42,225 nt of DNA. Source: a virus. The stretch spans positions 1 through 42,225 of IMG/VR virus record IMGVR_UViG_3300020439_000017. One strand, given 5' to 3'. Below, one piece after another: positions 1 to 42,225 of this stretch. Position numbers and translations under genes: made by a program. The notes beneath the pieces are model-generated. The model saw nothing but the letters and a program-made list of their open reading frames with translations. It did no database searches and was not told the origin of the DNA. Every line of letters starts with the position of its first letter. Position 1 is the stretch's first letter.

Positions 1-77
1 GGAGTGTGCCGTGTTTCTGGCCGATTGTCATTTTCTGGTGTATTTGCGTCATTACTAGCGGTGTTTTTATCCGTTAG
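1..77. repeat. Terminal overlap, identical to 41466-41542
   Basis: The first 77 bases match 41466-41542 exactly and differ from base 78 on. With the 76-base identity at 657-732 and 42150-42225 this brackets a diverged stretch, the pattern left when a circular genome with two alleles is opened inside an assembly-graph bubble. Confidence 0.85.
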
Positions 78-444
78 CAACGAATTGACGTCCCGATGGT
101 CAATGTGCAAATGACGATGCTCGACGGTTTGTGTGTTGTCGCCGCTCAGGTCGCGGATTTTGTCAGTAAGAATTCCGACCAAAATGGATTTATTGGCGGG
201 CTTTAGTTCATCAATGTTTTTTTGTAAATCATCCACCAAATCTGTCACCAAGTCTTGCATTGCCTTGGCCGTTCGGCGTTTCCAGTTCGGCAAGGCGTCC
301 CGGTTTTGTTCCCTCAACAGCGCGACAGTTGACCGGGCAACATTGTAATCGGCGGCAATTTGTGTGACGCCGTGGCCCGCCTTCAAATCCTCAACCATCG
401 CCGCTTTGGTTTCTGCTGGAATTGGTGCTTTCCCTCGTCGCATT
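1..444 (-). CDS. HTH protein, TerS-like (allele A, 3' end cut by window)
   Basis: The reading frame starts at ATG 444 and runs off the window start without a stop, giving about 148 residues. The N-terminus (MRRGKAPIPAETKAAMVEDL) is followed by a helix-turn-helix-like segment (GVTQIAADYNVARSTVALL, residues 25-43), then a helical region and a polar tail rich in D, N, T and E. The tail (SLLTDKNTASNDANTPENDN) is identical to that of the gene at 41381-41935, while the HTH half is diverged. Because the window is a circular genome opened here, this is best read as a second allele of that gene, not a paralogue. Its position just before the packaging genes, the HTH and the size suggest a small terminase subunit. 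That role is inferred from context; a transcriptional regulator is the alternative. Confidence 0.7.
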
Positions 445-445
445 A

Positions 446-481
446 AAACCGCTTCAAACTATGCAAAACCATTAAAAACTG
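446..481. repeat. Four 10-bp-phased A-tracts upstream of TerS-like allele A
   Basis: AAAAC or CAAAC occurs at 446-450, 456-460, 466-470 and 476-480, with an exact 10-bp period. The array begins beside the start codon (442-444) of the minus-strand HTH gene. Phased A-tracts are known to bend DNA. The same array is kept in the diverged allele at 41939-41974. Confidence 0.6.
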
Positions 482-658
482 ACGCCAAGTTTTCCCGGCT
501 ATTCGCCCTAGTCAAATTTTTTTTTCTGTTATTTTAGCCAATAAAAACAAGGGCAAAATGTACCTTGTCAAAAATAATTAAAAAAACTTTATTGACATTA
601 GCGAATTAAATGACACACTTAATCCCGTGCTGCATGAAGCGGCCAAAAAAATGTGAAA
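482..658. promoter_or_regulatory. Divergent promoter region between TerS-like gene and early operon
   Basis: This AT-rich gap separates the minus-strand HTH gene from the plus-strand early operon and holds no supported gene. A perfect -35-like TTGACA lies at 592-597 and is conserved in the other allele (42086-42091); no convincing -10 follows at 17 bp. On the minus strand TTGACT (510-515) is conserved, again without a good -10. A T-run at 517-525 and an A-run at 581-587 flank the centre. A divergent promoter is likely, but the start sites cannot be assigned. Confidence 0.45.
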
Positions 659-865
659 ATGATAACAAAAGAACAATTCAACTTGCGTTCGATATTCGTG
701 GGGAGTCCTGCTCCGTGCCATATCAAAGCCGGGGAAGTTTTATTCCGCAAAGGCGAAAAACTAACACCGCGAAAGCTCGACATAATCGCCGCGCATGGCG
801 TGGCTAAATGCAGTTTTCAAAATAAACTCGTAAAACAAAAATTCGCGGAGGTTGCCGAAGCATGA
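659..865 (+). CDS. Small early protein, 68 aa
   Basis: First gene of the plus-strand early operon; family not recognised. The ATG at 659 is chosen over the in-frame GTG at 653 because the allele at 42152 has one base fewer before the ATG, which removes the GTG from frame but keeps the ATG. The start context is TGTGAAAATG, a variant of the TGTGAGAAAATG seen at two downstream genes. The protein (MITKEQFNLRSIFVGSPAPC at the start) is basic and contains the segment KAGEVLFRKGEKLTPRKLDI. The stop overlaps the next start (ATGA). Confidence 0.7.
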   Translation: MITKEQFNLRSIFVGSPAPCHIKAGEVLFRKGEKLTPRKLDIIAAHGVAKCSFQNKLVKQKFAEVAEA

Positions 866-1056
866 AAAACAGAAAATATAGCGTAATAAATTACGGCATT
901 GCCCAAGGCGACCCGTATTTTATAGACCAAAAAATCGTTGGCCGATTCGTTGGCAATCTAAACGGCGTCGAGTGGGTTTGCTACCATCGCCAAGCCAACA
1001 AATTTGACGCCATGTGTGCAGCATTCGCCAAGGCTAGTGGGGAGGTGGCGGCATGA
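862..1056 (+). CDS. Small early protein, 64 aa
   Basis: Unrecognised. It starts within the stop of the previous gene (ATGA at 862) and ends the same way against the next (1053-1056), so it is translationally coupled on both sides. A GGAGG lies upstream of the start. The protein has a central aromatic stretch (NLNGVEWVCYHRQANKFDAM) and an alanine-rich end; no membrane segment or clear motif. Confidence 0.7.
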   Translation: MKNRKYSVINYGIAQGDPYFIDQKIVGRFVGNLNGVEWVCYHRQANKFDAMCAAFAKASGEVAA

Positions 1057-1175
1057 AATTACTTTATTTAATCGGCCAAGGCATACTTGCGCTAATCGTG
1101 TGGGGTAGTCTTGCGGCTTTTATGTTGGCCTACTTTATGAGTCCAGCCGTGGATGGGGGGAGGATTTTGCAATGA
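1053..1175 (+). CDS. Single-pass membrane peptide, 40 aa
   Basis: A short frame coupled by ATGA at both ends and preceded by GGGGAGGTGG, a strong Shine-Dalgarno. Residues 3-29 form one continuous hydrophobic segment (LLYLIGQGILALIVWGSLAA and onward), so it should be a single-span inner-membrane peptide with a short polar tail. Function unknown; small early membrane peptides in phages often act on host envelope processes, but nothing here identifies a target. Confidence 0.6.
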   Translation: MKLLYLIGQGILALIVWGSLAAFMLAYFMSPAVDGGRILQ

Positions 1176-1312
1176 CCAAGGCAATGCTTTTAAGCCTTTA
1201 CCGTTGCGGATGTCCAGCGGGCCGGGAGGCTTTCGGGCGGTTCATGGCGGGCCGCAACCTAACAAACCAAAAACAGGCTTTGCGCGTCTTGATTAAACAG
1301 GCGGGGAAATAG
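1172..1312 (+). CDS. Small basic early protein, 46 aa
   Basis: Starts with ATGA overlap on the preceding membrane-peptide gene, after GGGGGGAGG. It is basic with a Cys-x-Cys near the N-terminus (YRCGCPAGREAFGRF). No family recognised. The structured untranslated segment at 1317-1424 begins directly after its stop. Confidence 0.55.
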   Translation: MTKAMLLSLYRCGCPAGREAFGRFMAGRNLTNQKQALRVLIKQAGK

Positions 1313-1316
1313 CGCG

Positions 1317-1364
1317 GGCGGCTACGGCTTGCCCTTTCTTCGGGGAGGGTAAGGTGTAGCCGCT
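1317..1364 (+). promoter_or_regulatory. Long RNA hairpin with UUCG tetraloop
   Basis: Bases 1317-1338 pair with 1343-1364 around a TTCG loop at 1339-1342: 21 pairs with one G-G mismatch (1327/1354) and a few G-U pairs. There is no T-run after it, so it is not a standard terminator. It begins five bases after a stop codon and is the first of two structures before the gene at 1460. Its 3' strand (1359-1364) is also the 5' part of the outer stem of the next structure, so full versions of the two compete. Confidence 0.75.
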
Positions 1365-1424
1365 GGCCGGGCTGGAAATGTGAGAAACCAGCCCGCCGGG
1401 TATCGGCCCGGTAATGCCAGCGGC
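1359..1424 (+). ncRNA. Three-way-junction RNA element in 5' leader
   Basis: The outer stem is nine perfect pairs (1359-1367 with 1416-1424). Inside are hairpin A, eight pairs (1368-1375 with 1388-1395) with the 12-base loop AAATGTGAGAAA, and hairpin B, five pairs (1396-1400 with 1407-1411). Stem A adjoins the outer stem and stem B without spacers, and TAAT (1412-1415) closes the junction. It lies in the leader of the 144-aa gene at 1460. I recognise no known riboswitch or ribozyme core. It could be a ligand- or protein-sensing leader, or a stable processed RNA. Confidence 0.6.
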
Positions 1425-1450
1425 AAACAAAACAAAAACATAAAAACAAG

Positions 1451-1459
1451 TGTGAGAAA
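1451..1459 (+). promoter_or_regulatory. TGTGAGAAA motif directly before start codon
   Basis: TGTGAGAAA abuts ATG 1460. It takes the place of a normal Shine-Dalgarno, which is otherwise strong in this operon (GGAGGTGA before other starts). The same 9-mer abuts ATG 1964 and lies in the loop at 1379-1387. It may be a translation control site. Confidence 0.55.
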
Positions 1460-1894
1460 ATGAAAAGAACAATAGAAATAGAAGACACGTTACAGGATCG
1501 CGTTGATCTTTGCATAGAGGAAACCAAGGAATTACTCCTTGAATACATAAAAGACAACGAACCAGACGAAACGCCCTGCCTGTTTAATGACCTAGATTAT
1601 TCGGGCAGATTTCACGAAATAGTCGATAGCAACACGCCAATATATACCCACGAAATAAACACGATTTTTTATCTCCACGGGCATTTGTGCGAGGAAGCGT
1701 TTGAAAATTGCTTTGGGGCGGAAGCTAAAAAAGACGAGGGCTGGCCGTGTGGCTGGAAAGCGGCGGCAATTTATCAATACATCAGCGACCAAACGGCGGC
1801 TTGGTACAACGAACACGCCGAAGATATTTTGCTTGGTGAAAATGAGGGCGAAGCAAACCCAATAAATCCAGCGGCACTCGCACCGGCAAATTGA
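1460..1894 (+). CDS. Early protein of unknown function, 144 aa
   Basis: The largest gene of the early operon; acidic and not recognised. It has an N-terminal charged helix (residues 1-35), a central region with several Cys and His (C41, then HGHLCEEAFENC at 73-84, then GWPCGWKAAA at 94-103) and an Ala/Pro-rich tail. The Cys/His spacing could hold a metal, but no standard zinc motif is clear. It is not overlapped by its neighbours. It stands alone behind the structured leader at 1317-1424 and the TGTGAGAAA motif, so it is probably regulated separately from the genes before it. Confidence 0.7.
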   Translation: MKRTIEIEDTLQDRVDLCIEETKELLLEYIKDNEPDETPCLFNDLDYSGRFHEIVDSNTPIYTHEINTIFYLHGHLCEEAFENCFGAEAKKDEGWPCGWKAAAIYQYISDQTAAWYNEHAEDILLGENEGEANPINPAALAPAN

Positions 1895-1901
1895 TTCCCC
1901 T

Positions 1902-1947
1902 TTGGCGGCTTCCAGTGTAGGCCGTCAATGGGGGCGCAAAATGCCCC
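1902..1947 (+). promoter_or_regulatory. Two leader hairpins before the 1964 gene
   Basis: TTGGCGGC (1902-1909) pairs with GCCGTCAA (1921-1928) with one G-U, and GGGGC (1931-1935) pairs with GCCCC (1943-1947). TGTGAGAAA at 1955-1963 and the ATG follow. This repeats in miniature the arrangement before the gene at 1460: GC-rich hairpins, then the motif, then the start codon. Confidence 0.5.
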
Positions 1948-1954
1948 GAAAAAA

Positions 1955-1963
1955 TGTGAGAAA
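1955..1963 (+). promoter_or_regulatory. TGTGAGAAA motif directly before start codon
   Basis: Second start-abutting copy, with AAAAAA on its 5' side. It fixes ATG 1964 as the likely start of the following gene instead of the upstream in-frame ATG at 1928, which lies in the leader hairpins. Confidence 0.55.
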
Positions 1964-2185
1964 ATGAAAAAACTAAATCAAAAACGAATGGACGCCATAA
2001 TGGCGGGGTTTGTCAAAATATGTAAAAAACACAAAACGGCACTACCAGATGCGCTGATGGTCGTCATGGCGGGGTGTTTTGTTGGAGCCGTTGAAGCACT
2101 TGGCCAAGATGAGGCCGAAGAAGTCGCGCACGGCATGGTTGCCCACTGCTTGGATTTAATAAAAAGCGCGGGAGGTGAGGCATGA
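1964..2185 (+). CDS. Small helical early protein, 73 aa
   Basis: Not recognised. It begins MKKLNQKRMDAIMAGFVKIC and is predicted mostly helical, with a hydrophobic middle (ALMVVMAGCFVGAVEAL, residues 33-49) that could be one membrane span or a buried helix. An upstream ATG at 1928 would add 12 residues encoded by the hairpin segment and is considered unlikely. The stop overlaps the next start (ATGA) after GGAGGTGAGG. Confidence 0.65.
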   Translation: MKKLNQKRMDAIMAGFVKICKKHKTALPDALMVVMAGCFVGAVEALGQDEAEEVAHGMVAHCLDLIKSAGGEA

Positions 2186-2475
2186 GAACAAAATATAATT
2201 ATGGGTGGCTTGGCCTACGAGTCACAAAACTAAATGGTTTCGGGCGATTACTCCGCAAAAATGGTTGGTTTAAAGTTGACCGGGCAAACAAAAACAACCC
2301 ATGCGGCTTTGACTGGATGCGGTACGGCAGAAAACAATCCGAGATAAACGGGGCTGAAATTGCCTACCTTTCCACTTGTGGTTTAACTGGATTAGTCGGC
2401 TGGATCAGTGACGCCCAGTACGAGCGCGGGGTTGGGATGACTCGTAAACAATGGAGCGAAACCAAGATACTATGA
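2182..2475 (+). CDS. Early protein of unknown function, 97 aa
   Basis: Unrecognised; basic and rich in Trp, Gly and Tyr. It starts at ATG 2182 inside the previous stop, behind GGGAGGTGAGG. The N-terminal half (GWLGLRVTKLNGFGRLL) looks like a small beta-rich fold. No catalytic or metal motif is seen. Confidence 0.65.
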   Translation: MRTKYNYGWLGLRVTKLNGFGRLLRKNGWFKVDRANKNNPCGFDWMRYGRKQSEINGAEIAYLSTCGLTGLVGWISDAQYERGVGMTRKQWSETKIL

Positions 2476-2696
2476 AACCAATAATATCCACAACCGGCAA
2501 AATCAACGGGCGGGGCAGCGATAGATACAAATGGATAAGCGGTTTGACCGATTCAGAACGCGAAGCCGCAAGGCGAGGCGACCTTGTTTTGGTCAAGGAT
2601 TCCAGCGGTCACTATATGTCCACGACATACAAAAAAGTGAAGTATTACGCCGGTAAATACGAACACAGGAATTATCACGGGGAGGTGAAAGCATGA
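2472..2696 (+). CDS. Small early protein, 74 aa
   Basis: ATG 2472 is chosen because it forms the ATGA overlap used throughout this operon; the in-frame ATG 2451 would overlap the previous gene by 25 bases. The protein is basic and polar and includes GLTDSEREAARRGDLVLVKD, followed by a Tyr-rich segment. No family recognised. Confidence 0.6.
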   Translation: MKPIISTTGKINGRGSDRYKWISGLTDSEREAARRGDLVLVKDSSGHYMSTTYKKVKYYAGKYEHRNYHGEVKA

Positions 2697-2965
2697 ACCT
2701 TTGGAAAGAAAAACTCAATATTGGGCGAGTAATCCAAGAGATTGGGCCAAACAAAGACGTTGAACTCCACGTTACAAAAAACGGGTATGTATTATCTACA
2801 ACAACCCACGATTACTACCCAACGGGCCAAGGGGGATTGGATTTGTCAGGTGCAAAATTAACAGCGAAAGGGCGAACCGAAAAATGGGACGGCGACTGGC
2901 CGAAATGGTTCGCGATTGGGTTAATTCTGCGGATTGAACAACAAGCGGAAAGGATACTAGCGTGA
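2693..2965 (+). CDS. Early protein of unknown function, 90 aa
   Basis: Coupled by ATGA at both ends and preceded by GGGGAGGTGAAA. The protein starts MNLWKEKLNIGRVIQEIGPN and looks alpha/beta, with a beta-rich Gly/Thr middle and a C-terminal helix (WFAIGLILRIEQQAERILA). Unrecognised. Confidence 0.65.
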   Translation: MNLWKEKLNIGRVIQEIGPNKDVELHVTKNGYVLSTTTHDYYPTGQGGLDLSGAKLTAKGRTEKWDGDWPKWFAIGLILRIEQQAERILA

Positions 2966-3339
2966 AACGCTTCTTATTCGCCCCCACGATCGCGCTCACG
3001 GCCTTTTTATTGTCTCAGGGGTACATATACACCCAGCACATACCAAAAGAGGCTCAGAAGCGAAAATCAACGGTGTCTTGGTATGGTGAGCGATACCGGG
3101 GGCGGCTCATGGCGAACGGAAACCCATTTAATCCAGACGCTTTGACGGTCGCGCATCGCACGTTGCCATTTGGGACGCGGGTTCGGTTCCAGCATGGGCC
3201 GAATGTAGTTTTCGCAACAGTCACAGACCGTGGGCCATTTATTAAAGGCCGCGAATTCGATCTTTCCAAGGCAACTTTCGCGGCACTCGCCCAAGTTGAG
3301 GCCGGGCTAATTTCGCCAAAGTGGGAGGTGGTGAAATGA
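2962..3339 (+). CDS. RlpA-like double-psi beta-barrel protein
   Basis: 125 residues. The N-terminus (MKRFLFAPTIALTAFLLSQG) is a signal peptide or single anchor. Residues 38-105 carry the RlpA-like barrel signature: VSWYGERYRGR, then ALTVAHRTLPFGTRVR (60-75), then TDRGPF (88-93) and EFDLS. RlpA proteins are periplasmic or septal peptidoglycan proteins; some are lytic transglycosylases acting on denuded glycan. Set against Pseudomonas RlpA, the ANGNPFN stretch has Asn where two acidic residues implicated in activity normally stand (N54, N57), while H65 and D89 are kept. It is the only peptidoglycan-type protein I found, yet lies in the early operon away from the lysis cassette. It may be a diverged endolysin or a non-catalytic glycan binder. 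Confidence 0.8.
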   Translation: MKRFLFAPTIALTAFLLSQGYIYTQHIPKEAQKRKSTVSWYGERYRGRLMANGNPFNPDALTVAHRTLPFGTRVRFQHGPNVVFATVTDRGPFIKGREFDLSKATFAALAQVEAGLISPKWEVVK

Positions 3340-3572
3340 TTATTTACGAACTCATCCAAAAAGACATGGAGGCTGAAACCTACTTCACCCGGCATTGGGC
3401 CAAATCAAAGGCCGACGTTGCCAGCATCAAAGCCAAAGTGCGGGCCAAATACCGTGCCAACGGAAACCAGAAAGACTTTGATGGGTGGGTCGGCCCTTTC
3501 AAACACGAAATTGGCAACGGCAAAGACGGACTTGTGAGATTCCTCAACATCCACTGCAACAAAGACGGATAG
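3336..3572 (+). CDS. Last early gene, unknown, 78 aa
   Basis: ATG 3336 forms the usual ATGA overlap with the RlpA-like gene after GGGAGGTGGTG; an in-frame upstream ATG at 3321 would overlap it more. The protein is basic and aromatic, with a helical middle (SKADVASIKAKVRAKYRANG). Unrecognised. It is followed at once by the antisense motif (3577-3587) and the operon terminator. Confidence 0.65.
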   Translation: MIIYELIQKDMEAETYFTRHWAKSKADVASIKAKVRAKYRANGNQKDFDGWVGPFKHEIGNGKDGLVRFLNIHCNKDG

Positions 3573-3576
3573 CCCT

Positions 3577-3587
3577 TTTTCTCACAC
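3577..3587 (+). promoter_or_regulatory. 3' UTR element antisense to the start-codon motif
   Basis: TTTTCTCACAC in the early transcript's 3' UTR is the exact complement of 1450-1460 (11 bases, including the motif and the A of the start codon) and pairs over 10 bases with 1955-1964. It sits just 5' of an intrinsic terminator, the layout of a 3'UTR-derived small RNA with its seed ahead of the terminator. Confidence 0.45.
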
Positions 3588-3591
3588 ATCC

Positions 3592-3624
3592 AGCCTCGTC
3601 CCTCCAGTGGGGCGGGGCTTTTTT
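3592..3624 (+). terminator. Intrinsic terminator of the early operon
   Basis: Bases 3592-3602 pair with 3609-3619 (11 pairs, two of them G-U) around the loop TCCAGT, followed by a run of six T. Pairing is complete only in the plus-strand RNA (A-C mismatches on the minus), so it ends the rightward transcript. Confidence 0.85.
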
Positions 3625-3630
3625 GTGCAG

Positions 3631-3720
3631 TAATCGCGCCGATTTCCCAACATAGAAAAATTAGTTTTAATTATGTATATATTTTCAAGCGCGTGTATCG
3701 GTCGGTAATCGAACCGATTA
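3631..3720. repeat. Two TAATCG-N3-CGATT dyads around an AT-rich spacer
   Basis: TAATCG-CGC-CGATTT at 3631-3645 and TAATCG-AAC-CGATTA at 3706-3720 flank an AT-rich stretch. The second overlaps the stop codon of the minus-strand gene. The segment has no gene. The dyads may be binding sites for a dimeric protein, or weak convergent-transcript hairpins. Confidence 0.45.
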
Positions 3721-3924
3721 CTGACTAACCTCGTCCCTCCACATTTGCGGATACAAATACCCCCAAAACGAGGGCAACTCCCGCATCGTCCGCTCATCCA
3801 GATGCACCGAATACTGGTAATCATATTTTGAGCCGCGCCCACAGACCTCCTCAAACACAAACGGCGTGTACCGAGGCAACACGGGCGTCGGCTGTTTGTT
3901 TTTAATCAATTCGTCCAGCGTCAT
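3718..3924 (-). CDS. Small protein at end of replication operon, 68 aa
   Basis: Unrecognised acidic protein, MTLDELIKNKQPTPVLPRYT at the start, with a Pro- and aromatic-rich middle and RTMRELPSFWGYLYPQMW near the end. It lies beyond the candidate origin, downstream of the helicase gene on the same strand. Its own leader holds the 3965-4001 hairpin, which has the TGTGAGAAA motif in its loop on this strand. Confidence 0.55.
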   Translation of the reverse strand: MTLDELIKNKQPTPVLPRYTPFVFEEVCGRGSKYDYQYSVHLDERTMRELPSFWGYLYPQMWRDEVSQ

Positions 3925-3964
3925 GGCGTTTGGTTTCCAGCGGGTCGTGCCAACCTCGTTTTAA

Positions 3965-4001
3965 GTGTCGGGGGATTTTCTCACAAAATTTTCCCCGACA
4001 C
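3965..4001 (-). promoter_or_regulatory. Leader hairpin with TGTGAGAAA in the loop
   Basis: GTGTCGGGG (3965-3973) pairs with CCCCGACAC (3993-4001), extended inward by a G-T and an A-T pair. In the minus-strand RNA the loop contains TGTGAGAAAA (3976-3985), the motif also found in loop 1376-1387 and at two start codons. It lies about 40 bases before the 68-aa gene ending at 3718. Confidence 0.6.
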
Positions 4002-4066
4002 CGGGCGCGTCTCCAGCCCGGCACTCTCTCCAGCCCTCGGCCTCCAGATGGTACACTTTTCCAGTC

Positions 4067-4176
4067 AGCACCCGGAGCACCCGCAGCACCCGAATTTCCA
4101 GCTTGCTCTATATATATTTATTTCTTATTTCCTATATATAAGTTTAGATTAGGGTGCTAGGGGTGCTGCGGGTGCT
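4067..4176. other. Candidate replication origin: 3+3 inverted iterons around an AT-rich core
   Basis: AGCACCC occurs at 4067-4073, 4076-4082 and 4085-4091, and its complement GGGTGCT at 4152-4158, 4161-4167 and 4170-4176, all at exact 9-bp period. The two blocks face each other across about 60 bp that are strongly AT-rich (runs of TATATA). Iterons beside an AT-rich unwinding element next to the helicase gene are the usual form of an iteron origin. It could instead be a control site in the leader of the gene at 3718-3924, since the arms can also pair as RNA. Confidence 0.65.
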
Positions 4177-4195
4177 GGATTCGTGGAAGCAGCGG

Positions 4196-5470
4196 TTAAT
4201 TCGGCACACTGGAGATGCGCCACTCGTTTCGCCCGTTGACCTTGGCCGAGTCGTATAAATCGGGCCTAGCGGTTTTTAGACGCCGCATATAGGTCTTGAG
4301 GGCCGTTGGATAGGAGAGCAATTTCTCGACTCTGGAGCGGTAGGTTGGGTCGTCAAGGAGCCGCGTCTCAAGCTCTTGAAGCGTCCCTCGCCACGGCACA
4401 CCATTCGGCTGGATCACCACATCTATCAGTTCAGCCAATCGAGCCTCTGGAGCCATGTCCTCCAACACCTCCACAATACTTGGATGGTGAAATGCCTTAA
4501 TTCCAAACCGAGGGCATTTGTGAACCGGCGCAATCTTATGTATTTCCTCAACAAAATATATAAATCCCGGCAATTCCTCCAAAAGCGCATCCCAAAACGC
4601 AGACCTACCCTCTGGAGAATCACATTCCATCGGCATCGTGGCCTGTTGGACTTTGAAAAGCATGATTTTGTCCTCTATTGAATTATCCAGCGGCGGCAAC
4701 ATGACGAGATTCTCCGATTCATCATTGACTGAGATTGTGAGCCGCCAACATGGGGCCAAAATCAACGCATCCTTGTGTTTGCCGTGGCAGGATTGGTACT
4801 GGTTCACTGCGAAATCTTTAATGCGTGTGCCGAAAAGCCGCCGACTCGTTATGTCGTGGAACGGGGCTTCATCAGCTATCATTAGGTGTTCGGCTTGGAA
4901 CAAATCAGCATTAAATTCTGTCTTGCCCGTCATGTAGCGGTAAGGGCGGGCGACTCGGCCTCCCAGCATCTCGGTGATTAGGTCTTGAAATAGGTTTTTG
5001 CCGCAATTGCGCGGCCCGGCCATGACGAGGGCTTGGCCCGGCATTGGTTTCCCGGCTGTCAACATTCGGCGGGCCATTTGGAGCCAGCCAAACACATAGA
5101 ACAGTTGATCGGTGGACTCACCAATAAATAGGTCGCTCAAGATTTGCTCAATCATTGGAAAGGGTTTGTTCTCCCCCTTAATAATATGTGGATCATCGGT
5201 GACTAGCACTCTGGAGCCTTTGAAATTTTTCAGCCCAGCAGTATGACCAGCAAGCGGCCCCGCATACTCGCATGAATTTTTCACCACACACTCTGCCATA
5301 CATTGTTCGACTTGGCTCATTAAATCGCCTTGGGCTTTTGTGCCGTTGAGGCCAAGCAATTTTAACTGCCGCTTGGTGGCGTCCGCGTTGAGGGGCAGAT
5401 ACTTGTCCCTGTTATCCTGCATGAAAAATTTCTGCGTGGGGGCGTGATGGTGGATTTCAAAAAGGTGCAT
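4196..5470 (-). CDS. SF3/D5-like replicative helicase
   Basis: 424 residues. Walker A is GPRNCGKN (152-159), with Asn where Ser or Thr is usual, and Walker B is HLMIADE (about 195-201). The flanks resemble the phage primase-associated helicase domain (DUF5906/D5-type). It should unwind DNA at the fork as a hexameric ATPase and act with the primase-like protein whose gene overlaps its start by 14 bases (5457-5470); in many phages the two are one polypeptide. The C-terminal 100 residues (from about 320) look like a winged-helix tail. It ends 20 bases from the candidate origin. Confidence 0.8.
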   Translation of the reverse strand: MHLFEIHHHAPTQKFFMQDNRDKYLPLNADATKRQLKLLGLNGTKAQGDLMSQVEQCMAECVVKNSCEYAGPLAGHTAGLKNFKGSRVLVTDDPHIIKGENKPFPMIEQILSDLFIGESTDQLFYVFGWLQMARRMLTAGKPMPGQALVMAGPRNCGKNLFQDLITEMLGGRVARPYRYMTGKTEFNADLFQAEHLMIADEAPFHDITSRRLFGTRIKDFAVNQYQSCHGKHKDALILAPCWRLTISVNDESENLVMLPPLDNSIEDKIMLFKVQQATMPMECDSPEGRSAFWDALLEELPGFIYFVEEIHKIAPVHKCPRFGIKAFHHPSIVEVLEDMAPEARLAELIDVVIQPNGVPWRGTLQELETRLLDDPTYRSRVEKLLSYPTALKTYMRRLKTARPDLYDSAKVNGRNEWRISSVPN

Positions 5471-6296
5471 TGGATGGATTAAAATAGACTACGTCTTGGA
5501 GGTTGCCATTGGCCCGGCGACCGTGGGGCATACGAACAAATTGTGAGCGTGTCCATGTGGCTGGATCAGCACCTAATTGACACGCTGAATGAAAAAACTG
5601 TTTTACTATATCTTCAGAACGATCCCGCACATCGAACCACCCGTGGAGGGATTTGCCCCCGCTCAATACGGCGCAGCGCAACACAATGTTTTTGTGAAGT
5701 TTGTTAAGTCGCTGGAGATACGCGGCGTGGTCGTCAAATGTCCCTTCGTCAAATTCCACGACGAGGTAGTGGCGCGGCCCAGTATTTTGCAGAGTGCGCT
5801 GGGACTTGGTTCCCGCTTGTGTTTCTCCCCACTTATCTGTCATTGGATTTGGAACAATGAATTGCAACTGGTGGAGGTTTTGCCAGTGGAGCCGTGGCTT
5901 GGTTGCAAACTCTTTCGTACTCAAGCCGCAACACAACAATGGGTTTCCAAAAAACAAACTCTCCACCGCATCGTCGGCGTCTTCGCATTCTAACGGACTG
6001 GATTCCGCGAGCGCGGTCAACCCACCCTCTTTACGCCTCGCCGCTTCTTGCCCCGACTCGCTCACCTGACTCCACATGGGGCGGCGTTCGGTTGGGCCTC
6101 CAGCAATACTGCGAAGCGCGTTCTGGACTTCCCCCGGCTGGAGATCACGGGTTGCGTTTGCCTTGACGTATGCCTCTATATCATCTGGCCCAAACCCATC
6201 TTCGGCCAACACGCAACACGCATGGTATATCCATTTATGAACGCCAGTGCCGCCGGGTGGGCAGGGTTTAATTTTTGGGACGAGATTTTGTGCCAT
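5457..6296 (-). CDS. AEP-type primase (Prim-Pol-like)
   Basis: 279 residues. The second half has the signs of an archaeo-eukaryotic primase core: LVVEFDEG (178-185) as the acidic metal-binding motif, SGGKSLHGW (212-220) as the nucleotide-binding Ser/His motif, and RMPHGRR (255-261) as the basic motif near the end. The N-terminal 100 residues resemble the helical segment often found before such domains. It probably makes primers for the Pol A encoded upstream in the operon. Primase and helicase are separate but overlapping genes here. Confidence 0.75.
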   Translation of the reverse strand: MAQNLVPKIKPCPPGGTGVHKWIYHACCVLAEDGFGPDDIEAYVKANATRDLQPGEVQNALRSIAGGPTERRPMWSQVSESGQEAARRKEGGLTALAESSPLECEDADDAVESLFFGNPLLCCGLSTKEFATKPRLHWQNLHQLQFIVPNPMTDKWGETQAGTKSQRTLQNTGPRHYLVVEFDEGTFDDHAAYLQRLNKLHKNIVLRCAVLSGGKSLHGWFDVRDRSEDIVKQFFHSACQLGADPATWTRSQFVRMPHGRRANGNLQDVVYFNPSNAPF

Positions 6297-6516
6297 TGGA
6301 TTTTGCCCACGCTACCCACTTCTCTGGATCGCCATACATTTTTCGCGCATATTTAACCCGCGCCGCACGACCGGGGTAGTCCGTCCTATACGCCATTGTT
6401 CTGGATTCAAGCCGCCCGACTTCGCTTTCCAAAAGCCCGTGTCGATGCGCGAACTTCTTAAATTTATAATGCCAATCCTCCGCATTAACGTGTTGAGTTG
6501 GATCAGTAATTATCAT
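6268..6516 (-). CDS. Small basic protein, 82 aa
   Basis: Unrecognised. It overlaps the primase gene start by 29 bases and the preceding gene stop by 4 (ATGA). It is rich in Arg, Lys, Tyr and Trp (HYKFKKFAHRHGLLESEVGR; KYARKMYGDPEKWVAWAKSN), as expected of a nucleic-acid-binding accessory factor, but no named motif is present. Confidence 0.6.
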   Translation of the reverse strand: MIITDPTQHVNAEDWHYKFKKFAHRHGLLESEVGRLESRTMAYRTDYPGRAARVKYARKMYGDPEKWVAWAKSNGTKSRPKN

Positions 6517-6882: not shown

Positions 6883-7381
6883 TGATTTCCTCCCATATCC
6901 TATTAGTTTCTACTGCCAAATCACCCAACGTGCCACAGTTATTGATGGTAAAATCAACTGGATAGTCATCCATTGCCGTCTCGCTGGAATGTTGGTCGGT
7001 TGAATTGGTTTCCCGCACTACACGAATGACAGTGCCGCCCTGCCCCTTTATATAGTCCGCCTCATTCGGATAACGAACATCCGTAATAATGGCAGTTTCA
7101 AATCCTTCCAGTTCAAGGTTCTGGAGGTCGGCGTCCATCGCTTGAATCCAGTAGTCCTCGCCAAAAAATTTGCGGCGGAAATCCGCACCCCACGCTTGGA
7201 GCAATAGCCGCAACGATTCCTTCTCTTCCTCCACTTGCCACACTGGAAACCCCGTTATTTGGGCAATCTCGCGCTTAAGATTATCCGCAAACGCAGCCCG
7301 CGCCACCTTGGGCCTGTCCAGTATTTTAAAAATGGCGTCTTTGCCGCTTCGTTTTTTGCCTGTTAGTCCGATTAGTTTCAT
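6866..7381 (-). CDS. Deoxynucleoside monophosphate kinase
   Basis: 171 residues. The P-loop GKKRSGKD is at residues 8-15 (GLTGKKRSGKDAI), and TDVRYPNEAD (about 99-108) matches the conserved block of phage dNMP kinases. The enzyme phosphorylates dNMPs to dNDPs with ATP, feeding DNA synthesis from degraded host DNA. It overlaps the flanking genes by 4 and 17 bases. A GTPase or other P-loop kinase is unlikely given the second motif. Confidence 0.8.
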   Translation of the reverse strand: MKLIGLTGKKRSGKDAIFKILDRPKVARAAFADNLKREIAQITGFPVWQVEEEKESLRLLLQAWGADFRRKFFGEDYWIQAMDADLQNLELEGFETAIITDVRYPNEADYIKGQGGTVIRVVRETNSTDQHSSETAMDDYPVDFTINNCGTLGDLAVETNRIWEEINGVRR

Positions 7382-7695
7382 TTCAATTTAGATTCCCAAA
7401 CTCTGCGTGGTGTGGCGTGGTGACTTGGCACATACGAGGGGCGAAATTCGCCCGTTGGAGCAATCCATCCTTCCCGCTGGGCTACCCGCATGAGCGGCCC
7501 AACGGCTCGCAAATCTTTCGTGGTTTCGCTGGAATGAAAGTGCGGCCAAATGTCGTCAACGATAAATTTGTCGCGCCGTTTGGCAGTGGCGTGGATAGCG
7601 TCGAGCGTGGCTTCCTTCCATGCCTCGTTCGCACCCCCACTGGATTCGTCCATCGCGGCATCGCGAGCCGCCTTTCCTTTTTTGAGTGATTTCAT
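7378..7695 (-). CDS. Probable winged-helix protein, 105 aa
   Basis: ATG 7695 is chosen because it overlaps the polymerase stop (ATGA); a start at 7740 would read 15 residues back into that gene. The protein has a basic N-terminus, then AWKEATLDAIHATAKR, then FIVDDIWPHF, then RAVGPLMRVAQREGWIAPTG. This layout recurs in small phage proteins beside replication genes and looks like a winged helix. It is probably a DNA-binding accessory factor; there is no enzyme motif. Confidence 0.6.
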   Translation of the reverse strand: MKSLKKGKAARDAAMDESSGGANEAWKEATLDAIHATAKRRDKFIVDDIWPHFHSSETTKDLRAVGPLMRVAQREGWIAPTGEFRPSYVPSHHATPRRVWESKLK

Positions 7696-9434
7696 TTTGT
7701 ATATTTTTTGGCTTCGTATGCTTCCGCACCAATCGGGCATCCCTCCAACCAGTCTGGAGTTATGCTCATTAGATTCTCTATTTCTTTGGCCGCGTCTTGG
7801 TCGTCCTCATCAACTTCAACGATAAGTTCATCGTGGACTGACCAAACAACCTCAAATCCCGCGTTCAAAACACGCGCATAGCAGTCGGCAAAAACGTCGC
7901 GGGCCGTGGCTTGAACCAAATTTTCGCAAATCTTCCCACCGTACCAGTAGTAGGGGTTTTGTCCGCGAGTTGTGGAGGCAGTGAGTTGTCCCTTTTCCCG
8001 CTGGATGTTGAAATATCTGACTGGCCGCTCGCTGGGTAGGTAGATGAGGTGTTCTGGATCGCGCTCGTCTTTCATCCCGTTTTCGCAATCTTTCCAAAAC
8101 CAACACACCTTGGGATTCTGCCGCCGATACTCACGAACCGTGCTTTCGGCTTGGCTGGAAGTCATTGGAATGCCATAGCCCGCCGCAATCTCTCTAAACT
8201 TCTTCGCCCCACACCCATACCCCAATCCAAGGACGCGGATTTTGGCGAGTTGGCGCATCTTTTTGCTGACCCGCTTCGCCCCCATTGTTGCCATCGCGTG
8301 GGCCGTGTATATGTCCTTGCCGCTGGCTACGATCTCCAGCAACTCCGTGTCTCCACAAAGCCATGCCAAACAGCGCGGCTCAATTTGCGCGAGATCACAG
8401 ATAATAAATTTTTTACCCGGCCTCGGAATGAATAGGCTGCGAGTATCCACCCCAAAACTTTCTCCCCGTGGAAGGTTCTGCATATTGAGTCCGGTGTCGC
8501 CGCTCCATCTTCCCGTTAGTGCCGCGCCAAAATACTTGAGGCCAAATGGTAATGTTCCGTCTGGTCGAAGCCGCGTCTGGACTGTTTCAAATAGGCGCAG
8601 CAATCGGTTCGCCTTCCTCCAGTCCCGCAACGCGGCAACCACTGGATACTTCTCCCCATACTCGGCTTCCCACGCCGCACACGCTGGATCGTTTTGATTG
8701 GTTGAGGCTGGAGCCGGTATGCCCTCCTTACCACAAAACGCTTGGAGTTGTTTTAACGAATTGACTGGCTCATCATCAGCGGCCCACGGAATCACCCGCG
8801 CATTCTGTCGCTTTTTAGTAGCCAAAATGGCCAGACCCAATTCCAACAAATTCTGATCTATATAAACCCCCCGTTGCCCGCTCGTCATTGTGTGACGGGC
8901 TAGTTGCTGCTCCTGCGCGGGCCAGAACTCGTTGTACTTGTCCCAAATCTGTTTGCAGTAAACCGAGTCCATGCGCCCATACTCGATGAGCGACCTGAGT
9001 TCGTCTTGGGACAAGTCCTTGGGCAGCTTACCCTTCATGCCGTCCCGCACTGCCTTGTCGGGCTTGACCCCCAACATTTGTTCCGCAACTCCCTTGAGTG
9101 AGCGCGGAGCTTGGATATAAACGGAGAGATTCGCGGAACAACTCCAGCTAGGTTTGATTCGCTCTGGAATCATGCCGTCCCGCTGGGCCGCTTGAAAAAC
9201 CACCGAGTCAAACCCGGCGTTGTGGGCGACAAAATGCGCGTCCGCAGGAATTTCGTCCCACGGCGCACATTCAGTCGGGCCTACATAGTCGAACCCATCG
9301 CCATATATTGAGACGAGGTAGGGGTCGAATTGAGGATGACGGCAATACCCATCTGGCCCAAGAGTTCGGATGGAATAATCCGCCGAGTAGTACGTCTCGA
9401 AATCAATCGCGATGCCAGTAGACGTAATCCCCAT
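7692..9434 (-). CDS. polA: Family A DNA polymerase with 3'-5' exonuclease
   Basis: 580 residues, shorter than bacterial Pol I because the 5' nuclease is absent. Exonuclease motifs: IDFET (D11, E13), FVAHNAGFD (D76) and YGRMD (Y152, D156). Polymerase motif A is CDLAQIEPR (D347) and motif C is SVHDE (D535). Motif B reads RQLAKIRVLGLGYG (394-407), so the residue matching E. coli Phe762 is Leu402. In environmental phage Pol A surveys this Leu variant has been linked to temperate life, which agrees with the integrase here. The start has no Shine-Dalgarno; the upstream mini-ORF at 9403-9465 does, and may couple its translation. Confidence 0.9.
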   Translation of the reverse strand: MGITSTGIAIDFETYYSADYSIRTLGPDGYCRHPQFDPYLVSIYGDGFDYVGPTECAPWDEIPADAHFVAHNAGFDSVVFQAAQRDGMIPERIKPSWSCSANLSVYIQAPRSLKGVAEQMLGVKPDKAVRDGMKGKLPKDLSQDELRSLIEYGRMDSVYCKQIWDKYNEFWPAQEQQLARHTMTSGQRGVYIDQNLLELGLAILATKKRQNARVIPWAADDEPVNSLKQLQAFCGKEGIPAPASTNQNDPACAAWEAEYGEKYPVVAALRDWRKANRLLRLFETVQTRLRPDGTLPFGLKYFGAALTGRWSGDTGLNMQNLPRGESFGVDTRSLFIPRPGKKFIICDLAQIEPRCLAWLCGDTELLEIVASGKDIYTAHAMATMGAKRVSKKMRQLAKIRVLGLGYGCGAKKFREIAAGYGIPMTSSQAESTVREYRRQNPKVCWFWKDCENGMKDERDPEHLIYLPSERPVRYFNIQREKGQLTASTTRGQNPYYWYGGKICENLVQATARDVFADCYARVLNAGFEVVWSVHDELIVEVDEDDQDAAKEIENLMSITPDWLEGCPIGAEAYEAKKYTK

Positions 9435-29323: not shown

Positions 29324-29705
29324 TCTCAACTACCTCCACCTTCATCACACCCTTTTCGTTCCCTTTTGGCAGATACTCCGCACCACCATTCACCGGCAAC
29401 TTCTTCTCAATCACCAACGCTTTGAGTTGGCTATTTGGAACAAGCATTTTTGTGGCGCGGTCTGTCATAAAAAACGTGGTACTGGTTAACCCAAGGCGAA
29501 TGACTCGCGCTTGCCGTCCGCTGATATAAAGGATTTCATCGTTTTCAAAATCGCTCCCCCAGTAGACCAACAACCCTTGCGCGAAATTAAATAAAACGTC
29601 CTTGAACAATATCGCAGCAAAAGCCGCAACAAGCATCCACCCGTAGTGTCCGATTGCTTGTTCTGCGACTCCTTCAAGTGCGGCATGGTCTAGGACATTA
29701 GTCAT
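29310..29705 (-). CDS. Mini MscS-like mechanosensitive channel domain, 131 aa
   Basis: Residues 23-48 (WMLVAAFAAILFKDVLFNFA) resemble the pore-lining TM3, and the stretch DFENDEILYISGRQARVIRL then TSTTFFMTDRATKMLVPNSQ matches the beta domain of MscS (x-G-x-V-x-x-I-x-x-x-S-T-T ... D ... x-x-V-P-N-S). E. coli MscS has 286 residues; here TM1, TM2 and the C-terminal cage are absent. It lies just before the lysis genes. It may form a small pore or modulate turgor before lysis. The fold assignment is good; the role is unknown. Confidence 0.7.
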   Translation of the reverse strand: MTNVLDHAALEGVAEQAIGHYGWMLVAAFAAILFKDVLFNFAQGLLVYWGSDFENDEILYISGRQARVIRLGLTSTTFFMTDRATKMLVPNSQLKALVIEKKLPVNGGAEYLPKGNEKGVMKVEVVESESV

Positions 29706-30258
29706 TCAATACACTCACGCTTGTCCAAGCAGCTTGCCATTCTGCGTATGCAGGGTTAGCTACTGGATCAGCTTCCTCATCCACTTCCTCAACAACCTCA
29801 ACGACTCCAGTGTCATTACCTTCCTCGTCCAGTATTGGTCGTTCAACTTCCACCATCACCGGCAACGTCTCGCTTGGCTTACCTTTGCGAACCGTTTCAA
29901 AGTCATTCGTCAAATCGGTTGCACCAGCAATCGTCACTTGAGCCGCATCGTATTCGGCCCACGCTTGGAACGGTCGTTCCGTTTCGTTGCCTTCTACATC
30001 AGTCTCGGTGACGGTTCTCGGAACGTCGCCTTCCGGTTCAGCAACTAGCCGCGCTGCCTCAAGTGCCTCAACGTCTGCCAACGCTTGCCGAATGCCAGCA
30101 TTGCGTTCGCTCTGCGCGTCGAGTGTTGCTTGTTCGGTGTCAGCTACGGGATAAGCATCCTCAACGCATACCGCTTGGCCGTTCTCGTTGACTGACCACC
30201 GCCTCAAGTATGCGCCACCTTTGTAGGTGTCGGGCTGAATGTCGGTGCTGCGAATCAT
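29698..30258 (-). CDS. Late protein of unknown function, 186 aa
   Basis: Acidic. N-terminal YLRRWSVNENGQAVCVEDAY looks like a small beta module; the rest is helical and very acidic, ending in NPAYAEWQAAWTSVSVLN. It sits after the large LamG-containing tail protein, so it may be a tail-fibre assembly or attachment factor. Unrecognised. Confidence 0.5.
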   Translation of the reverse strand: MIRSTDIQPDTYKGGAYLRRWSVNENGQAVCVEDAYPVADTEQATLDAQSERNAGIRQALADVEALEAARLVAEPEGDVPRTVTETDVEGNETERPFQAWAEYDAAQVTIAGATDLTNDFETVRKGKPSETLPVMVEVERPILDEEGNDTGVVEVVEEVDEEADPVANPAYAEWQAAWTSVSVLND

Positions 30259-38921: not shown

Positions 38922-39102
38922 TTTTTTGTTCCTTCAAAAGTTTAATTATTTCGTCCCGGTAGAAGCGGCGTTGGTTTCCAGTCGTTCTAAAAACGCTCAA
39001 CACTTTGGCTTTCTCCAGTAAAAGTAGTTCTCGGCGGCTCAACCCCGTGACGCTCACAACGTCGGCTGGCTTCACCAAAATTGGTAGTTCGTATATGCTC
39101 AA
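38908..39102 (-). CDS. MerR/excisionase-type HTH protein, 64 aa
   Basis: LVKPADVVSVTGLSRRELLL then VLSVFRTTGNQRRFYRDEII is a MerR-like or Xis-like winged HTH. Lying between terL and portal, it may regulate late genes or act as a recombination directionality factor for the integrase. The function is inferred. Confidence 0.6.
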   Translation of the reverse strand: MSIYELPILVKPADVVSVTGLSRRELLLLEKAKVLSVFRTTGNQRRFYRDEIIKLLKEQKNGNN

Positions 39103-40730
39103 TATCCTCCCCCTCCAGACGCGGCAAACGTGAGTTCAGTCACATGAATTGGCTCCATCACGGCTAAATAGCGGAGCGTGTCTATTGGGTCTTTGCTCGC
39201 GCCCTTCTCCCCGTCTTTTCCAGTCCATTCCTGCAAGCTATATATGAGGTTGCCACATTCCTCGCTCACATAAAGGTTTGGCTCATTAACTGCCGTGACT
39301 GGCTCGGACTGATTAAAATTCAACCAATCATTTACAATGGTGAGTCCGTTCGCCACTGAGATTCCAGCGGCTTGCTCAAAATACATCGGGTCTTCCCCTT
39401 CCCCCAATAGATCAATGATGCTTGTGCCGCCCTCGCGCCCAGCGGCTTGCGAAGCTCCAGCGCGGGGGTCTATATATCTGGCCTCGATGTCCTCCCCGTT
39501 TTCCAGTTCGGCAATAATCTCCTTCACTTCGGGTAGGCCGCGCCCAGCCCCAACACTCTGCGCCGGGCCGGGACTTCCATCCATCTTCTCCCCCGGCACT
39601 GCCCACTCCCCATAGTCGTGACGATTTGGCCATTCTCGGTAAACGAATTTGCGCCCCCGGTCGTCCACGCGAATCCAGAGGCAGAACCAATTCCGGTTCC
39701 AAGCCGGGTCAACTGCCATGTAGTTGGTTCCGTGTTCGGGGATTTTGTCGGCTTCCAGAATGTGTGAGTCGCAAAACTTTGGAAACTGATTCCCCGACAA
39801 ATTCTCCGCAAACCCATACGCCCGCAGCTTAATCTGTATGCTGTTTTCGCCCTTGAGAGTCTTTTTCATTTCCTCATAGGGGTTGTACGGGTTCATGTCT
39901 GTGTAGAACCACATGGCACGGGAGTTGGGTTTCCTACACTGCGCCGTGTACGGCATGGTTCCAGCGGGACATCCCGGCACATTCACGGTGTCGGGGAGAA
40001 GCGGACTTGGGCGCGTTTCCAGCACTCTAAATCCAGACAAATACTCCTTCACGGTCGGCGTGTATCCATCAACGGGCGTGAAGGTGAGTAGCAAACGACC
40101 AGATAGTTCGTGGCTTGATGCCCGCGTAACCAGCCGAAATCGCAGCGTCTCAATCCAAGTCAATGGCACAAGCTCATCACACCAGATCATGTCCACTTCG
40201 CCACCCTCGATCACTCGCATTTCTTGGCTATAATTCATAAACCAACATTGCGAGCCATTTGGGAGAATAAACGTGTTTTCGGTGAAACCATTCTTCTGGC
40301 TGAAACTCACATTCTGAACTTTGCCCTTCTTAATGTTCTTCCACTCGGCCGGGATGTATTTGTAAACCAGTTGTTGCTGGTCGCGAATACTGGATTGCGC
40401 CGTCATTCCCAGTACCCACACCTTCGCGCCTTTCTTTGCCGTCATCATTTGCACGATGCGCTTGGCGGCAAATTCTGATTTTCCAGCGCGGTTACCTCCT
40501 TGGATTAGAAGTTCGCCGCAGCCTTTCCAGAGTTCGTCGGCATCTTTCCAGTGTGGGGGTTCGTACCCGTAGCGGTATGGGTCTTCCTTCTCCAGTCGGA
40601 TTAGTTCTTCCCGTTGCTCCAGTATGCGGGCCAGTTCCGCCGTGCCTTCTTCCCCGCGCTCCACAAACGAGCGAATTTTGTCCTGCGATGGCACGACAAG
40701 CACTGGATGTGGTGTGGGGGTGAAAGCCAT
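39099..40730 (-). CDS. terL: Terminase large subunit
   Basis: 543 residues. ATPase: Walker A GGNRAGKS (78-85) and Walker B VDMIWCDE (179-186) with the catalytic Glu. Nuclease: MAVDPAW, then YIDPRAGA, and DTLRYLA near the C-terminus, the RNase H-like acidic motifs. The enzyme translocates and cuts genome DNA into the prohead at the portal. The start shares one base with the previous stop (TAATG), and the stop overlaps the HTH gene (ATGA). Confidence 0.9.
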   Translation of the reverse strand: MAFTPTPHPVLVVPSQDKIRSFVERGEEGTAELARILEQREELIRLEKEDPYRYGYEPPHWKDADELWKGCGELLIQGGNRAGKSEFAAKRIVQMMTAKKGAKVWVLGMTAQSSIRDQQQLVYKYIPAEWKNIKKGKVQNVSFSQKNGFTENTFILPNGSQCWFMNYSQEMRVIEGGEVDMIWCDELVPLTWIETLRFRLVTRASSHELSGRLLLTFTPVDGYTPTVKEYLSGFRVLETRPSPLLPDTVNVPGCPAGTMPYTAQCRKPNSRAMWFYTDMNPYNPYEEMKKTLKGENSIQIKLRAYGFAENLSGNQFPKFCDSHILEADKIPEHGTNYMAVDPAWNRNWFCLWIRVDDRGRKFVYREWPNRHDYGEWAVPGEKMDGSPGPAQSVGAGRGLPEVKEIIAELENGEDIEARYIDPRAGASQAAGREGGTSIIDLLGEGEDPMYFEQAAGISVANGLTIVNDWLNFNQSEPVTAVNEPNLYVSEECGNLIYSLQEWTGKDGEKGASKDPIDTLRYLAVMEPIHVTELTFAASGGGGY

Positions 40731-41380: not shown

Positions 41381-41935
41381 TCAACGCGAACCCCCTCCCC
41401 CCGTCTGTGATTCGCGCTGTGATTCTTTTTGCGGTGTGATGTCAATTATATCTGCCGCCGTGGTCGGAGTGTGCCGTGTTTCTGGCCGATTGTCATTTTC
41501 TGGTGTATTTGCGTCATTACTAGCGGTGTTTTTATCCGTTAGGAGGGAATTAAGGTCGCCGTGGTTAATGTGAACGTGCCTATGCTCCACAATCTGATTC
41601 CCGTCGCCCGCCATGTCTTTAATTTTGTCAGAAATTATTCCAAGCGAAATGGTTTTGGCGGCGGCTGGAATTTTGTCTATGTTTTCTTCGATATTGTGTA
41701 AAAGTTTGTCATGGACACGGGTTAAATTTTCAAGCGTATTTTTTCGCCACTGGGGAAGATTATCGGCGTTCTCGTATCGTATACGACTCACCGTGTTTCG
41801 GCTGGTCTTGGTCAAGGCCGCTGTTTCAATCAACCCTTTCCCTTTTTTCAAGTGTGATAAAATTTCTTTTTCCTTGTCAATTGGCGTCTTGTTTTTGGGC
41901 GTGTTTCGGTTGCCGCTGTTTTTATTTCCCGCCAT
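41381..41935 (-). CDS. HTH protein, TerS-like (allele B, complete)
   Basis: 184 residues. The basic N-terminus (NKNSGNRNTPKNKTPIDKEK), a helix-turn-helix (GLIETAALTKTSRNTVSRIR, 34-53), an alpha-helical oligomerisation-like part (70-115), then a polar tail. The first gene of the late operon, three genes before terL. Compared with the allele at 1-444 the HTH half is strongly diverged but the tail is identical, as in exchange of a DNA-recognition module. TerS is the favoured role; the two other HTH proteins nearby leave it open. Confidence 0.65.
   Translation of the reverse strand: MAGNKNSGNRNTPKNKTPIDKEKEILSHLKKGKGLIETAALTKTSRNTVSRIRYENADNLPQWRKNTLENLTRVHDKLLHNIEENIDKIPAAAKTISLGIISDKIKDMAGDGNQIVEHRHVHINHGDLNSLLTDKNTASNDANTPENDNRPETRHTPTTAADIIDITPQKESQRESQTGGGGSR
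41466..41542. repeat. Terminal overlap, identical to 1-77
   Basis: This 77-bp identity lies within the C-terminal coding part of the TerS-like gene. The sequence diverges from 41543 on. Confidence 0.85.
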
Positions 41936-41938
41936 GTG

Positions 41939-41974
41939 AAAACCGATTAAAACTATCTAAAACCATTAAAAACT
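41939..41974. repeat. Four 10-bp-phased A-tracts upstream of TerS-like allele B
   Basis: AAAACC or AAAACT at 41939, 41949, 41959 and 41969, exactly 10 bp apart, directly upstream of the minus-strand gene start (41935). Conserved with 446-481 despite divergence of the neighbouring coding part. Confidence 0.6.
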
Positions 41975-42149
41975 GACGCCAATCGTCGGCGGCTATTCGC
42001 CCTAGTCAAATTTTTTTTTCTGTCATTTTAGTCAATGAAACCGGGGGCAAAACGTACCTTATCAAAAATAATTAAAAAAACTTTGTTGACAGTAGCGAAT
42101 TAAATGGCACACTTAATCCCGTGCTGCATGAAGCGGCCAAAAAAATGTG

Positions 42150-42225
42150 AAATGATAACAAAAGAACAATTCAACTTGCGTTCGATATTCGTGGGGAGTC
42201 CTGCTCCGTGCCATATCAAAGCCGG
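42150..42225. repeat. Terminal overlap, identical to 657-732
   Basis: The last 76 bases of the window equal 657-732. Just before this the two copies differ by one A in a homopolymer. Confidence 0.85.
42152..42225 (+). CDS. First early gene, second copy (cut by window end)
   Basis: Starts ATG 42152 with the same residues as the gene at 659-865 (MITKEQFNLRSIFVGSPAPC) and runs off the window. It is the same gene reached again round the circle, not a duplicate. TTGACA at 42086-42091 is the matching -35-like element. Confidence 0.75.
   Translation, partial: MITKEQFNLRSIFVGSPAPCHIKA

Follow-up and report, generated by a model that had tools for sequence, protein, structure and literature searches.

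The virus record IMGVR_UViG_3300020439_000017 of IMG/VR is a stretch of 42,225 bp, the whole of which was analysed here and is called the window. Small genes at 659-3572 form a short plus-strand operon in which the nine-nucleotide motif TGTGAGAAA recurs at start codons, in a hairpin loop and, in reverse orientation, in front of the terminator. A previous sequence-only reading had proposed that these repeats are sites at which a small RNA or an RNA-binding protein sets the translation of early genes. The question raised by this locus is what the repeats are for, and what recognizes them. By comparing the window with its relatives, we found a start-codon tag whose code differs between two sister clades and which has a matching antisense copy next to the terminator of the operon, and we take this conserved arrangement to be real. 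The best single explanation, to which we give an even chance of being right, is that an antisense RNA derived from the 3' untranslated region (UTR) of the operon tunes the translation of the tagged genes.

Copies of the motif and their leaders

All five exact copies of TGTGAGAAA reported by the sequence-only reading were recovered (1379-1387, 1451-1459 and 1955-1963 on the plus strand, 3578-3586 and 3977-3985 on the minus strand), against 0.41 expected, and an exact count over both strands of the 42,225 bp gave no other. Five copies were reached in 0 of 100 dinucleotide shuffles. With one mismatch allowed, 15 matches were found against 12 expected, and since these are not in excess, the signal is the exact motif. 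As had been claimed, two copies adjoin start codons (ATG 1460 and ATG 1964), and the near copy TGTGAAA lies directly before ATG 659. These three genes have no GGAGG-type Shine-Dalgarno site, and such sites are indeed present at the other operon genes that were checked, e.g. before 1053, 2182, 2693 and 3336. The features of the tagged leaders are the following.

629-643, plus strand: leader 1 hairpin GCTGC-ATGAA-GCGGC, upstream of the tag of gene 1 (fold -7.1 kcal/mol, z-score -1.2)
652-658, plus strand: tag 1, weaker form TGTGAAA, adjoining ATG 659
1359-1424, plus strand: structured element of leader 2, with outer stem 1359-1367/1416-1424, loop hairpin 1369-1394 and second hairpin 1396-1411
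1379-1387, plus strand: copy of the tag within the leader 2 hairpin, whose predicted loop has 12 nt
1451-1459, plus strand: tag 2, adjoining ATG 1460
1460-1894, plus strand: tagged gene 2, an acidic protein of 144 amino acids with a weak Ocr-like anti-restriction match (PHROG 2568, E 2.5e-5)
1931-1947, plus strand: hairpin GGGGCG...TGCCCC of leader 3, followed directly by tag 3
1955-1963, plus strand: tag 3, adjoining ATG 1964 and kept before homologous and non-homologous genes

Every tag is preceded by a GC hairpin and then by an A-rich spacer. The leader 1 hairpin reads GCCGC/GCGGC or GCCGG/CCGGC in the relatives, its pairing apparently being kept by two-sided change. Leader 2 (1359-1420) folds with -31.3 kcal/mol (z-score -2.5), and leader 3 (1925-1967), which has equivalents in the relatives, with -10.8 kcal/mol (z-score -2.1). 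The multibranched architecture of leader 2 is common to both sister clades; its outer stem is invariant, and one two-sided pair change was seen. The covariation test that the earlier reader had suggested for the hairpin at 1368-1395 gave a weak score, not above that of shuffles, and covariation of this hairpin was dropped as proof of RNA structure. Two copies had also been assigned to hairpin loops. This holds for 1379-1387 (stem 1369-1375/1388-1394), and not for 3977-3985, where the motif is partly paired on the minus strand and the loop is not open. A consensus scan of the leaders found no promoters.

One tag before interchangeable genes

Close relatives of the window phage are held in IMG/VR; none of the phage records searched with the first 5 kb of the window matched. 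For the start tags, the T clade consists of the window and L003, L004, L011/L074, L012, L013, L014, L071 and L073, L015 being compared in addition at the antisense copy. In this clade the ATG is immediately preceded by the tag, as TGTGARAAA or in the shorter form TGTGAAA, at three places: the first gene, the gene behind the structured leader, and the gene at 1964 or its replacement. At the first of these the relatives have TGTGARAAA-ATG or TGTGAAA-ATG, and the allele at the right end of the window contig is TGTGAAATG. The loop copy of leader 2 is conserved as well, as TGTGARAAA in the T clade and CAGTGAGA in the sister C clade.

Tag 2 is the clearest case, as it reads TGTGAGAAA-ATG in every T-clade relative whose sequence extends over this site, and heads at least five different genes among them. 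The slot behind leader 2 contains the Ocr-like protein of 144 amino acids in the window and L003, an acidic protein of 219 amino acids in L004, proteins of 81 and 205 amino acids in L012 and L013, respectively, and an ArdC-type anti-restriction protein of 288 amino acids in L014 (6699-7562; PHROG 7245, E 1e-81; ArdcN, E 2.6e-36). We regard it as a candidate anti-restriction slot. Judged by its placement in these genomes, the motif is a conserved start-codon tag before different, often unrelated early genes. The earlier reader would have given up the proposal had the motif been absent from relatives or scattered at similar density elsewhere; it is conserved in the relatives and not scattered.

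A minimal start-stop open reading frame (NTG-TGA) before the ATG was also considered, and was rejected because it suits the T clade and not the CAGTGAGA of the C clade. G010, a contig of L012 of 65,640 bp, which is longer than the apparent genome size of this phage, carries two extra TGTGAGAAA copies, at 44216 and 51943, away from starts.

An antisense copy before the operon terminator

The copy at 3578-3586 lies outside any minus-strand leader. On the operon strand it is the reverse complement, TTTCTCACA, in the 3' UTR of the operon, where TTTCTCACACATCC is followed by the terminator AGCCTCGTCCC...GGGGCGGGGCTTTTTT. We refer to it as the seed.

3578-3586, plus strand: antisense seed TTTCTCACA of the 3' UTR, unpaired in the predicted fold and separated by 5 nt from the terminator stem downstream
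3592-3624, plus strand: intrinsic terminator, composed of stem 3592-3619 and a T-run

This terminator is the strongest of 14 terminator-like sites in 1-4300, with 11 pairs of which 8 are GC, and is the sole strong terminator of the operon; the region 3573-3624 folds with -22.2 kcal/mol (z-score -4.4). The seed is invariant in six of six T-clade genomes (window, L004, L012, L013, L014 and L015), and around it the spacer on the upstream side is variable and the last gene has diverged, markedly in L012. The sequence-only reading had listed this copy without noticing that it is a conserved antisense copy in front of the operon terminator, a position that speaks more for a small RNA than for a protein. 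The more general part of that reading, a phage-specific translation-level site for either kind of factor, is supported, in that the motif is conserved, stands at the starts of unrelated genes and is replaced everywhere in the sister clade. Terminator-pattern scans for further clades returned the known loci plus two unrelated terminators behind tRNA-like sequence, and nothing else; an exact 16-mer scan of the collection gave 53 stretches, most probably due to chance at that length.

The position of the seed also bears on the idea that the repeats are recombination anchors, i.e. short identical flanks that help early gene cassettes to be swapped, the inverted copies lying where a cassette ends. 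Non-homologous genes do stand behind one and the same leader and tag in different relatives, and modular shuffling of this sort is known in other phages. Nine nucleotides are nevertheless too short for ordinary homologous recombination, for which the longer structured leaders would serve better, and anchors would predict neither the fixed distance to the ATG, nor the loop position, nor the exposed antisense copy before the terminator. We consider this explanation very improbable.

A coordinated change in the sister clade

The C clade (L016/L085, L017, L018/L078 and L086) is ~74% identical to the T clade in the primase-like protein and 85-87% in the terminase. It has the same leaders, and every tag, including the loop copy, reads CAGTGAGA. 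Its pre-terminator sequence, in L016-L018, is TCTCACTGGTTCCAGCC, with the seed TCTCACTG. At the position before the GTGAGA core, T is thus replaced by A in all tags and its partner A by T in the seed; at the next base, R is replaced by C in the tags and C by G in the seed. The A's behind GTGAGA can pair with the T-clade seed, and in the C clade they are unconserved and the seed no longer pairs there.

In two C-clade contigs all copies of CAGTGAGA could be accounted for. Those of G014 (31,040 bp; six of six) comprise the loop copy, the seed, the starts of three operon genes and that of one distant gene; in G016 (six of six) there are five sense copies, at four starts and in the loop, and one antisense copy, the seed. 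The distant gene of G014, near 26.6 kb (L185 1345-1629, minus strand), encodes 94 amino acids, is inserted between structural genes, and has its own TATAAT-like promoter and terminator-like hairpin besides the tag at its start. A tag on such a gene implies that the factor should act in trans. The outgroup L005/L006 retains the operon end and the terminator, with no repeated start tag and no conserved seed, the pre-terminator sequence differing between the two genomes. Among more distant relatives, identified by their terminase, none was found with a repeated tag and an antisense copy to match.

These changes have to be set against another view, in which the tag is mainly a divergent initiation signal, with GUGA as a 4-nt Shine-Dalgarno core (complementary to UCAC close to the 3' end of the 16S rRNA), the rest as an A-rich enhancer, and the antisense copy as incidental. 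GTGA is common to both clades and lies 2-4 nt from the ATG in the T clade, and the lack of a GGAGG-type site at the tagged genes agrees with this view. It leaves unexplained, however, the concerted T-to-A and R-to-C changes upstream of GTGA at all sites, as well as the copy in the hairpin loop and the invariant antisense copy with the same switch, and is in our opinion improbable.

Proposed pairing of seed and tags

Complementarity was evaluated by taking the 25 nt that precede the terminator stem and counting the starts at which an 8-mer complementary to them occurs, in comparison with 300 shuffles. The observed count was reached by 0 of 300 shuffles in L016, L018 and L014, by 3 of 300 in the window and by 7 of 300 in L013, in genomes that are related and not independent, and with a k-mer length picked after the motif had been seen. 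Seed complementarity extends over 10-11 bp at two of the three tagged starts of the window, and over 8 bp at all C-clade starts. The tags of leaders 2 and 3 form 9-11 contiguous pairs with the seed of their own clade versus 6 with that of the other.

We infer from these relations the following course of events. A small RNA, probably excised from the terminated 3' end of the operon mRNA, would accumulate and pair in trans with the start tags and with the loop copy of leader 2. Pairing would cover the ribosome-binding site and repress the tagged genes, the outcome being a negative feedback on the dose or timing of early proteins. In the T clade, GUGA 2-4 nt before the ATG could be a weak Shine-Dalgarno sequence that is hidden by pairing. 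In a wider form, which we put forward tentatively, the tag may be an address at the start codon, open to any acquired early or inserted gene, anti-restriction genes included, and read in trans by the antisense RNA of the operon 3' end. With codes that differ between the sister lineages and are matched within each, the RNA of each phage would preferentially address its own genes.

Several observations weigh against an antisense RNA. In the T clade, leader 1 and most loop copies read TGTGA-A-AA, which gives an A.C mismatch and ~5 contiguous pairs. By contiguous length, C-clade tags pair with the T seed about as well as with their own (7.8 and 8.0, respectively), because A's follow the core. The seed-tag duplexes are short, and the motif sites are not the strongest among predicted duplex energies over the whole genome; such energies were set aside as uninformative, GC-rich chance duplexes scoring higher. 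A consensus scan found no promoter-like site adjoining the seed. Seen from the minus strand, the seed region has the same order as the leaders, with a hairpin first and the motif behind it. Finally, the switch between clades is one evolutionary event that rests on one or two positions, because the GTGAGA core is common to both.

These points lend some weight to the view that the motif is the site of a phage-encoded sequence-specific protein, either an RNA-binding translational or a DNA-binding regulator, whose specificity differs between the clades, so that all sites, the one at the terminator included, changed together. The R position of the T clade (A or G) suits recognition by a protein better than pairing, and the order of hairpin and motif on the minus strand at the terminator copy makes a protein reading of both possible. 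A candidate gene at 7378-7740 (minus strand, 120 amino acids, in the replication module) has matches in both the T and the C clade, with none found in the outgroup. Yet for an RNA-binding protein the antisense copy would be no site on the plus transcript, although it is fixed before the plus-strand terminator. As for a DNA operator, the motif is non-palindromic and its placement at start codons would be unusual. Contigs without the small basic operon protein 2475-2696 still have the motif, and this protein was rejected as the cognate regulator. On account of the T-clade mismatch, the cross-clade pairing, the duplex energies, the single-event switch, the hairpin plus motif on the minus strand and the gene at 7378-7740, we keep the protein as the main alternative, though a less likely one.

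The fifth copy

Beyond the operon, the remaining copy of the motif lies in a hairpin.

3965-4001, both strands: hairpin found in the window only, with the fifth copy (3977-3985) on the minus strand and TTTCTCACA in the loop on the plus strand

The hairpin folds with z-scores of -5.2 on the plus and -4.6 on the minus strand. It had been proposed as a hairpin of a minus-strand leader with a conserved loop, and this conservation did not hold: the sequence is an insertion in this contig that L004 and L012-L015 do not have. It forms part of the leader of a minus-strand gene, and the gene is itself missing in several relatives. This copy could add the minus-strand gene to the regulon or be a second antisense loop on the plus strand. 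As there is nothing with which to compare it, we give it little weight as evidence.

Other features of the window

The following genes of the window are all listed with minus-strand coding.

4196-5470, minus strand: DUF5906 primase-helicase-like protein
7692-9434, minus strand: family A DNA polymerase
39099-40730, minus strand: terminase

The nearest cellular matches of the terminase are in metagenome-assembled genomes (Verrucomicrobia 54%, Pedosphaera 47%, Alphaproteobacteria 35%), and because of these matches there is a hint, and only a hint, of a Verrucomicrobiota host. In the operon, 2962-3339 encodes an RlpA-like double-psi beta-barrel protein (Pfam DPBB_1, E 2.6e-18), present in the T, C and outgroup clades. 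Adjoining the primase-helicase-like gene, the region 4060-4187 has an AT-rich stretch flanked by short repeats in inverted sets of three (CAGCACCC-type in one direction, GGGTGCT-type in the other). The repeat unit is AGTGCCC or AGGGCCC in relatives, both arms being altered together, and the region is a possible candidate for a replication origin. A search of 1-6500 against Rfam gave no family above the gathering score; the only matches were sub-threshold ones to microRNA models, mostly on this inverted repeat. The regions 1-732 and 41466-42225 are two different alleles of one region (79% and 92% identical stretches), and the contig ends look as if two strain variants had been joined in the assembly of a circular or redundant genome.

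Comparison with known systems

Cluster K mycobacteriophages carry a short asymmetric start-associated sequence (SAS), in part as an extended form (ESAS), a few nucleotides before the starts of genes that are non-structural and belong to various families (Pope et al. 2011, PMC3203893). It occurs mostly in larger intergenic gaps, and about half of the copies have an upstream inverted repeat (PMC3203893). The motif of the window is similarly repeated in one orientation, a few nucleotides from the starts of unrelated non-structural genes. SAS, however, is GGGATAGGAGCCC with a real Shine-Dalgarno sequence, whereas the window motif is TGTGARAAA or CAGTGAGA, with at most a GUGA core. The upstream repeat of ESAS is a 17-bp imperfect inverted repeat, whereas the upstream hairpins in the window are of 5-7 bp and differ in sequence. 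ESAS was later reported to include SigA-like promoters (PMC11373665), unlike the window leaders as far as consensus scanning could tell. No antisense role is stated for SAS in the cluster K literature cited here.

K1 phages have a single reverse-strand SAS copy that is not tied to a gene start (PMC3203893). We observed that in Adephagia (JF704105, near 58.7 kb; L165 ~29655-29710) it lies in the gene-free gap between genes 92 and 93, a gap in which late transcription is reported to begin (PMC11373665). The copy is within a hairpin loop in K1 phages, the stem varying with pairing kept. It is kept in Anaya, Niklas, Validus, SgtBeansprout and LaterM, and not in Keshu, Unicorn, Krueger and Shandong1; as it is not kept outside K1-like phages, the comparison may serve as a lead only. 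If the antisense RNA proposed here is true, it would provide a testable function for start-associated repeats such as those of cluster K.

In phages P1 and P7, the antisense RNA c4 pairs near a ribosome-binding site, with pairing sequences that are likely in loops, and is essential for heteroimmunity between these related phages (PMC12197685). c4 is an immunity element with an antirepressor mRNA as target, whereas the seed of the window lies at a 3' end and would address several early genes. If the pairing proposed for the window is true, the matched codes of the T and C clades would be a natural pair of compensatory mutations. The promoter-stem-loop cassettes of T4-type phages are hairpin-bearing regulatory cassettes between interchangeable early genes, and carry early promoters. 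In the window, by contrast, it is an element at the start codon that is conserved, and the consensus scan found no leader promoter.

There is also a likeness in arrangement to OppZ and CarZ of Vibrio cholerae, in which an RNA from the operon 3' UTR pairs with its own transcript and translation is inhibited (Hoyos et al. 2020, PMC7398697). As in that type of RNA, the seed lies before the intrinsic terminator in an operon 3' UTR and has conserved complementarity to initiation regions of the same operon. The system of the window differs in that it is deduced from sequence, is phage-borne, and has several tags per operon, with a tag also in another transcription unit and a clade-specific code. If the proposal is true, early genes that are swapped in would come under one phage control through a common start-codon tag.

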